Virus record (IMG/VR): IMGVR_UViG_3300010885_039203
Span: 1 to 23,253 of that record
Source: a virus
Direction: 5' to 3' (one strand)
DNA length: 23,253 nucleotides
Below the pieces are notes generated by a model that was given only the letters and a program-made list of their open reading frames with translations, was not told where the DNA came from and did no database searches. A program made the translations under genes and the position numbers. Positions 21,763-23,251 of the stretch are shown piece after piece (positions within the stretch are counted from its first letter, which is position 1; each line of letters starts with the position of its first letter).

Positions 21763-21827
21763 GTTTCTGCTGCATTTTACTTTGTCAAGTAGTTTATTAG
21801 CAACCCACACTCTCCCCCAAATGTCAA

Positions 21828-21884
21828 TACCCTCTATTTTTGTAGTCGTTACCCTCTAAAAGTGTAGTCGCTTATCCTCTGTAG
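21828..21884 (-). repeat. Iterons of the plasmid origin
   Basis: Two 22-bp direct repeats, 21828-21849 and 21850-21871, share TACCCTCTA at one end and GTAGTCG at the other with a variable 4-5-bp middle. A degenerate, shorter third copy (TATCCTCT then GTAGC) follows to about 21884. The 22-bp period equals two helical turns, typical for Rep_3 iterons, and the repeats lie about 120 bp upstream of the rep start. The third copy also contains TTATCCTCT, a 7/9 match to a DnaA box. Confidence 0.78.
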
Positions 21885-22059: not shown

Positions 22060-22125
22060 AATCCCGCCTAAAATCGCCCAGAATCGCCCCAAAATCGGCA
22101 GAATATCCACTCAAATCGCCGCAAA
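22060..22125. repeat. Phased tandem array of AATCGCC repeats
   Basis: Units of consensus AATCGCCCMRA recur with ATCG starting at 22073, 22083, 22094 and 22115, a degenerate unit (ATATCCACT) in the 22105 slot, and a related unit (AATCCCGCC) at 22060. Spacings of 10-11 bp put every copy on the same face of the helix, as expected for cooperative protein binding. ATATCCACT (22103-22111) is also a 7/9 match to a DnaA box. Confidence 0.6.
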
Positions 22126-22248
22126 ACGTGGGTAATTGCCGTGGCGAAGCAGCCGTAAATACTAATACTAATCGCAAAACATGCTGTAACTATAAGTTAT
22201 GTAGCTGTGCCGTATGGATAATTGTAGTAGCTGTTTGCTGAATTGTCT

Positions 22249-22866
22249 GATAGCTTCGCCGGAGCTGCATTGGCGTATATAATATAAGTAATAGTGTAAT
22301 AAATGCTGGATAGCTGCGCCGCGGAGCTGCATACAATAATAATAATATGTAGCTTCGCCGCTGTTAGTTGTTGTATTTGGTGGTGTAGGTGCATGGATAG
22401 CTTCGCCGCACCCGTTGATACAGTAATATATATACGCACGTACATGCCGTATAAAGCTGGCGAAGCTACATAATGCTCATGTTAGCATGCCGTACTACTG
22501 ATAGTTGGTATGTTGTGCTTATTTTGTGTTGTAGGATAGCTGCGCCGGGTATTATATATACGTACATTGCCGGGAGCTGCATATAGTATCAATACAATGT
22601 GTACATACAGTATAGTTGTATGTTGCGGATGTTGTATGCTGCGGATGTTGTATTGTAGGATAGCTACGCCGAAGCATTTTATAATATATATATAATACAC
22701 CTCCCGTTCGGTAGTTGTGCGGCGGAGCTGCATATGTAGTATCCGTAGTGGTGTATAGGTATGGTAATGTAGTAGCTGAGTAGCATAAGTGTATGGATAG
22801 CTGCGCCGAGCCGTATAGTATTATAATGCATACAGGTATCCGCTTGTAGTGCTGGCGAAGCTGCAT
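22249..22866. repeat. Family of GC-rich inverted-repeat elements (about 7 copies)
   Basis: Left arms (GGATAGCTKCGCCG or close variants) lie at 22249-22261, 22308-22321, 22349-22360, 22395-22408, 22534-22547, 22658-22671 and 22795-22808. Right arms (GGCGAAGCTGCAT or variants) lie at 22260-22270, 22322-22332, 22457-22471, 22571-22582, 22721-22733 and 22852-22866. Arms are always in left-right order, and each left arm except the third has its own right arm. Two units are collapsed to 22-25 bp; four enclose AT-rich interiors and are 49-77 bp. The fourth and fifth units share interior sequence (ATATATACG then GTACAT and GCCG), so they are copies of one element. A degenerate arm (GTAGCTGTGCCG) lies at 22201. 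Confidence 0.8.
22616..22663. repeat. 16-bp tandem repeat
   Basis: TTGTATGTTGCGGATG (22616-22631) is followed directly by TTGTATGCTGCGGATG (22632-22647), differing at one base, and then by a diverged third unit TTGTATTGTAGGATAG (22648-22663) whose end is the start of a GGATAGCT arm. There are no spacers between units, so it is not a CRISPR. Confidence 0.75.
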
Positions 22867-22980: not shown

Positions 22981-23096
22981 TAAGGTGCTATGGTGGAAAA
23001 ATTTGGTATGTAGATGGAGGTCGCCTAGTAAGTTTACGCAATATCACCAGTTCCGCCAAGTACCTTACCCCTAGTACCACTAGCACTAGGGGTTTT
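22981..23096 (+). ncRNA. Candidate structured small RNA ending at an intrinsic terminator
   Basis: TAAGGTGCT (22981-22989) and TGGTGGAA (22991-22998) pair with TTCCGCCA (23051-23058) and AGTACCTTA (23059-23067), giving 17 base pairs with one bulged A (22990) and two G-U pairs. Inside, TGGT-ATGT (23004-23011) pairs with ATAT-C-ACCA (23041-23049) as an 8-bp helix with one bulge, and the tip can form two small hairpins (AGG-TCG-CCT at 23018-23026; GTA-AGTT-TAC at 23028-23037). The closing helix ends one base before the stem of a strong terminator, so the two would stack. No open frame of useful length occupies it. I recognise no known RNA family; an antisense or regulatory RNA is possible. No covariation data are available from one sequence. 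Confidence 0.5.
23068..23096 (+). terminator. Rho-independent terminator
   Basis: CCCCTAGT (23068-23075) pairs perfectly with ACTAGGGG (23085-23092) around a 9-nt loop, followed by TTTT (23093-23096) and GTTGTTG. Its presence with no gene upstream on this strand for almost 3 kb implies a non-coding transcript. Confidence 0.85.
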
Positions 23097-23116
23097 GTTG
23101 TTGTTACTTGATTAAG

Positions 23117-23251
23117 CTTGGCATGTGCCAGGCAATGATAATTGTTATTGCTACTAGCAGTAGCTCAATGATGGCGCCTGCCAACAACAGCACTACTTAT
23201 CCCCCTTGGGGAGGGTGACATACCATCCGACTGGTATGGATAGCTCATCCA
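23117..23251. repeat. Run of consecutive short hairpins
   Basis: Seven adjacent inverted repeats: CTTGGC/GCCAGG (23117-23132), ATAA/TTAT (23138-23148), GCTACT/AGTAGC (23150-23164), TGGC/GCCA (23172-23183), CCCC/GGGG (23202-23211), CATACCA/TGGTATG (23219-23238, 7 bp perfect) and TGGAT/ATCCA (23237-23251). The last contains GGATAGCT, the start of the left arm of the upstream repeat family. The run continues to the window edge and may extend beyond it. Confidence 0.55.

Follow-up and report, generated by a model that had tools for sequence, protein, structure and literature searches.

What kind of element is a dense cluster of GC-rich inverted repeats in the noncoding DNA of a virus that also carries a plasmid-type replication gene? 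The window, that is, the whole stretch of DNA analyzed here, was a virus fragment from IMG/VR of 23,253 bp, linear and without end repeats. Its genes include a tail module of lambda-like type, a GH19 endolysin and a GTA-type holin, and its minus strand encodes a Rep3 replication initiator. Both Rep3 initiator domains that mark a Rep3 plasmid replicon were present in this protein, Rep3_N (Pfam PF01051, 1.2e-24) and Rep3_C (PF21205, 2.5e-13), and its PHROG match was to replication initiation protein. The initiator was distant from all of its matches, with 27-29% identity to the best RepM plasmid initiators and mostly 20-30% identity across matches in a sample of 369 genomes from one gammaproteobacterial class, and no close relatives were found in IMG/VR or in genome contigs. 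An initial annotation of the DNA alone had assigned the repeats to the origin region of a phage-plasmid, which agrees with the finding of a plasmid-type Rep3 initiator in a phage record.

The repeats occupied the ~1.4 kb between rep and the contig end, an interval with no convincing gene, and the contig terminated 0.4 kb past them. Minus-strand open reading frames of 82-104 amino acids across the array were apparently artefacts of composition. The array itself was located 435-1146 bp (0.4-1.15 kb) upstream of the divergent rep gene. Closer to rep, and not part of the array, were two 22-bp iteron-like direct repeats, of which additional degenerate copies are likely. Iterons of 22 bp upstream of rep are a feature of Rep_3 plasmids (PMC13141974), and were found in this position in three Rep_3 plasmid loci (L138, L139 and L140); with two copies at 73% identity, the repeats in the window were weaker and fewer than those of the three plasmids.

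The arms of the repeats proved to be real and far above chance, with seven left and six right copies as first described. Six left arms were exact copies of GATAGCTNCGCCG (starting at 22249, 22309, 22396, 22535, 22659 and 22796, and spanning 22249-22808), and a seventh at 22348 had two mismatches. Allowing up to two mismatches, the left arm matched eight times in the whole window against 0.49 expected, a count reached by none of 100 shuffles, and seven times between 22100 and 23000 against 0.03 expected, while the right arm GGCGNAGCTGCAT matched six times against 0.09 expected. The arms were 64% GC compared to 35% for the remainder of the interval and 36% for the window, so the description of GC-rich arms in AT-rich DNA was accurate, as were the exact spacings of 139, 124 and 137 bp between the last four left arms. 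Alternation of left and right arms, given as strict, held everywhere except at 22348 and 22396, where two left arms are consecutive if one leaves out a degenerate right arm at 22382 (GGTGTAGGTGCAT); one of the two short units measured 22 bp as reported, but the other was 24 rather than 25 bp. The only perfect arm pair, of 14 bp (22346-22359 with 22459-22472), enclosed another left arm. Through lone or decayed arms the array reached out to 22143 (GGCGAAGCAGC) and 22200 (TGTAGCTGTGCCG). Unit lengths were close to multiples of 24 bp (P 0.007), a post hoc observation that was given no weight. Within one array spacer there was also a 16-bp tandem repeat, GTTGTATGCTGCGGAT, in 2.4 copies (22615-22653).

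Table 1. Coordinates of the rep gene, its upstream repeats and the units of the array in the 23,253-bp window.
Feature	Position	Strand	Details
Rep3-family replication initiator gene, 249 aa	20960..21709	-	Pfam, PHROG and RepM identity
Two 22-bp iteron-like direct repeats	21823..21866	-	73% identical, spacing 22; ~115-160 bp upstream of rep
Short AATCGCC-type direct repeats	22065..22126		Tandem Repeats Finder, period 10, 3.2 copies; between iteron-like repeats and array
Outlying single arm GGCGAAGCAGCCG, GCGNAGC core intact	22143..22155	+	
Decayed left-type arm (TGTAGCTGTGCCG on plus strand), 3 mismatches	22200..22212	-	
Unit E1, 22 bp, left and right arm fused	22249..22270	+	
Unit E2, 24 bp	22309..22332	+	
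Left arm L3a (TGTAGCTTCGCCG), perfectly complementary over 14 bp to right arm 22459-22472	22348..22360	+	
Unit E3b, 76 bp	22396..22471	+	
Unit E4, 48 bp, interior resembles E3b	22535..22582	+	
Unit E5, 75 bp	22659..22733	+	
Unit E6, 71 bp	22796..22866	+	
Twelve GCGNAGC cores	22144..22861		Seven minus (rep-sense), five plus

With all arms written in a single sense, left and right proved to be the same 13-14 bp unit, CGGCGNAGCT followed by a four-base tail, which was ATCC in most left arms, GCAT in most right arms and ACAT at 22348, 22459 and 22200. The N of the core took all four values rather than the T, G or A first noted, and the other core bases were fixed in all left arms. All seven left arms retained GCGNAGC intact, on the rep-sense strand, as did four of the six right arms and one outlier, giving 12 sites in 900 bp compared to 0.86 in shuffles (~14-fold), with five in the other 22 kb. 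An extraordinarily stable DNA mini-hairpin results when two or more G-C pairs close a GNA or GNNA loop, N being any base, and the mini-hairpin GCGAAGC has a Tm of 78 C (PMC4686876). All 12 exact cores have the sequence of such a loop and stem, and GCGNAGC, with N free, is exactly the published mini-hairpin sequence (PMC4686876, and work of Hirao and Yoshizawa cited there); the published structure was determined in vitro, whereas folding within the array is read from the sequence, and the arms add conserved tails outside the core.

The base at N was complementary in only one of six neighbouring left and right pairs (E3b), consistent with the earlier observation that it does not covary, from which a DNA element was preferred over a conserved RNA structure. 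A structured noncoding RNA might instead run across the array and end at a terminator-like stem (CCCCTAGT/ACTAGGGG, then TTTTGTTGTTGTT) at 23071-23103 on the plus strand, upstream of which no plus-strand gene was evident. As five of six pairs did not covary, fold energies were the same as those of shuffles (z 0.07 and -1.22) and no Rfam match was found, we regard such an RNA as highly improbable. A simpler reading of the non-covarying base is that it would form the apex of a GNA triloop inside each arm, as a free N in an otherwise fixed left-arm core is what a GNA loop leads one to expect. Against this, the stems are minimal here, with two G-C pairs followed by G-T, and the array region contained no perfect GNA hairpin whose stem reached four or more. 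In the 22-24 bp units generic DNA folding did not favour the hairpin. Among long left-to-right hairpins, only those of the E3 units folded clearly better than shuffles. The two right arms lacking the core still retained GGAGCTGCAT, which suggests that the tail may be recognized as well as the core. Primosome assembly sites of PriA have the consensus GNAGCGG; these were rejected, as this sequence was absent from the array, where the motifs read GNAGCT.

A precedent for a DNA structure read by protein is found in the promoters of the phage N4 virion RNA polymerase, small hairpins whose loop contains a sheared G:A pair; they extrude at sub-physiological supercoiling and are recognized by protein (PMC4496689). 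The array cores resemble them in having a GC-rich heptamer with a predicted three-base loop, and would share the sheared G:A pair and extrusion by supercoiling. N4 stems, however, measure 5-7 bp and every promoter drives an early gene, while the array stems are shorter, with copies on both strands and no downstream plus-strand gene, and no N4-type polymerase gene was found in the window.

How the array arose can be judged from what lies between its arms. The interiors of E3b and E4 were similar (P 0.003), as were interiors summed over all pairs (P 0.007), so the alignable interiors of the initial annotation were recovered for these, though not for the other pairs, which were individually non-significant. 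Spacers following E3b and E4 were likewise similar (P 0.003), and other spacers were mostly dissimilar. The shared interiors and spacers of E3b and E4 suggest a partial tandem duplication with later divergence, in which the arms were kept. This history does not favour the tiny non-autonomous mobile repeat that had been proposed, inserted repeatedly in AT-rich noncoding DNA in the manner of yeast mitochondrial GC clusters, which are mobile palindromes (PMC4478555). The GC-rich palindromic arms amid AT-rich DNA, the variable interiors and the two short forms do resemble such clusters. However, yeast clusters are dispersed, whereas all copies here were confined to one 0.7-kb noncoding interval in a single orientation, with no unit elsewhere in the window, no target or flanking duplication visible in the unit flanks and no copy found in other genomes, and we therefore consider a mobile repeat very unlikely. 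The array could also be a by-product, either of neutral local duplication in fast-evolving noncoding DNA or of foreign DNA joined by misassembly, as the region was skewed and rich in simple sequence and neither an orthologue nor similar DNA was found. Against this, the arms were retained despite diverged interiors and spacers, suggesting constraint, and 12 bp of the array flank (GTATGGATAGCT) were matched again at 23234, near the contig end; a by-product thus seems improbable.

The array is known from a single sequence. We found no second array in IMG/VR, in ~85,000 species genomes, or in phages or plasmids; pattern scans of these other collections returned single isolated matches, and DNA similarity searches of phages and plasmids returned nothing. 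In two proteobacterial classes, represented by 369 and 385 species, copies of GGATAGCTNCGCCG never exceeded three per genome. Relatives identified by tail protein J (L008, L088) or endolysin (L090-L112) had neither Rep3 nor a detectable array, though these closest phage relatives are themselves fragments. As the initial annotation had supposed, no named family with this core was found.

We evaluated the frequency of the core in the upstream DNA of 26 other Rep3 genes and, as a held-out set, in 14 further Rep3 plasmids. Up to 1500 bp upstream of the 26 genes, GCGNAGC occurred 36 times on the rep-sense strand against 7.25 expected and 13 times on the opposite strand against 6.4, and up to 700 bp upstream 26 times in rep sense against 2.7, with five on the other strand; since the loci are related and phylogenetically non-independent, and part of this first set had suggested the motif, the enrichment is a lead rather than proof. 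Enrichment was absent from rep and downstream DNA (15 and 16 versus 17.3) and from phage loci totalling 694 kb (319 and 371 versus 316). Within 700 bp in the held-out plasmids the direction agreed but the excess was small (4 versus 1.5). GC-rich triloop hairpins upstream of rep were of the GNA type in 15 cases and of the TNC type in one (8 versus 0 in the held-out set), and by the number of loci hit GCGNAGC ranked second among 4006 patterns of the form XYZNUVW (15 of 42 loci compared to 3.6). Thiothrix plasmid pTunz3, for example, carried AGCCGCGTAGCGGCT, GCGTCGTAGACGC and ACGGGCGTAGCCCGT above its 22-bp iterons, and TGAGCGNAGCGAA was found in held-out plasmids of Acinetobacter baumannii (N=T), A. 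lwoffii (N=A), Proteus (N=A) and Enterobacter (N=C). Several GNA-loop palindromes or GAGCGNAGCGA motifs, mostly in rep sense, were also observed upstream of rep in other Rep3 plasmids, at L139:1826-1914, L130:301-579 and L138:2074-2210.

Because related plasmid rep genes also have an excess of this core next to them, the array seems to belong to a region for replication or maintenance and does not look like a jumping element. We tentatively favour, at somewhat less than even confidence, the reading that this stretch of noncoding DNA is an array of cis-acting sites, lying upstream of the Rep3 initiator gene and the iteron-like repeats within the extended origin of a phage-plasmid. Like Rep3/RepM origins (PMC13141974), it combines this initiator family, upstream iteron-like repeats and the GCGNAGC that many members carry in rep sense. 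Upon unwinding or negative supercoiling of the DNA, the motifs could fold in single strands and, together with their conserved tails, be recognized by a protein of replication or maintenance, perhaps serving as single-strand sites for priming or loading next to the origin; the array would have expanded partly through tandem duplication. Other Rep3/RepM plasmids differ in having one to six scattered GCGNAGC, mainly in rep sense and with the flank GAGCGNAGCGA, whereas here there are twelve in an alternating array with the flank GGCGNAGCT. Three points count against this reading: five cores are on the other strand, although relatives favour rep sense; the array is 435-1146 bp from rep, although the excess in relatives falls mostly within 700 bp; and the primosome consensus is absent from the array.

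The main rival to this reading is a partition (centromere) or incompatibility locus, in which the arms would be double-stranded half-sites for a ParB/SopB-like or other dimeric protein, the array would resemble F sopC or the dispersed sites of N15, and the likeness to a GNA loop would be incidental. Binding of partition or incompatibility proteins had been raised as a possible role for the arms from the outset. Type Ia centromeres always include inverted repeats, either scattered or grouped at one locus inside longer iterons (PMC5016525). With F sopC and the N15 sites the array has in common that inverted repeats occur in many copies where a plasmid or phage-plasmid has its maintenance functions, and arm conservation extends over 13-14 bp, exceeding the hairpin core. 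Phage KS14, which has a related Rep, has a noncoding repeat region next to rep as well as a DNA partitioning gene; immediately upstream of that gene (L137:1000-1096) are palindromic TTGATATCAAC-type repeats, likely a partition operator or centromere. No partition gene was found in the 23.3-kb window, from which the part of the replicon that might carry one is missing, and the distance between arms was highly variable (units of 22 to 76 bp), unlike that of a fixed palindrome. A partition locus would also leave unexplained the free central base and the excess of GCGNAGC, biased to one strand, that accompanies other Rep3 genes, and on balance we consider it a rather unlikely, though serious, alternative.

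Beyond the cis-acting array that we favour, a broader and doubtful proposal is that GNA mini-hairpin motifs are an overlooked component of Rep3 origins, acting as rep-sense DNA-structure signals that were amplified to twelve copies here. To our knowledge, small extruded DNA hairpins have been assigned few natural roles, with N4 promoters as the standard case. Enrichment of a mini-hairpin grammar on one strand beside a large initiator family, together with its array in a phage-plasmid, makes the use of such structures by replicons directly testable, and a real role would have a wide reach, as many Acinetobacter plasmids belong to the Rep3 initiator family.

Two further observations concern the contig end and the distribution of Rep3 genes in phages. 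Next to the terminator-like stem, a small hydrophobic open reading frame, MLLLAGAIIELLLVAITIIIAWHMPSLIK, was present on the minus strand (23104-23193), with a GTG start and a G-rich stretch upstream; its start overlapped the stop of a frame running off the contig end, and the two are possibly the end of an operon. In Arsenophonus nasoniae plasmid paNv_UK13 (L197), a Rep3 gene was situated between capsid and terminase genes, and this plasmid is likely another Rep3 phage-plasmid.
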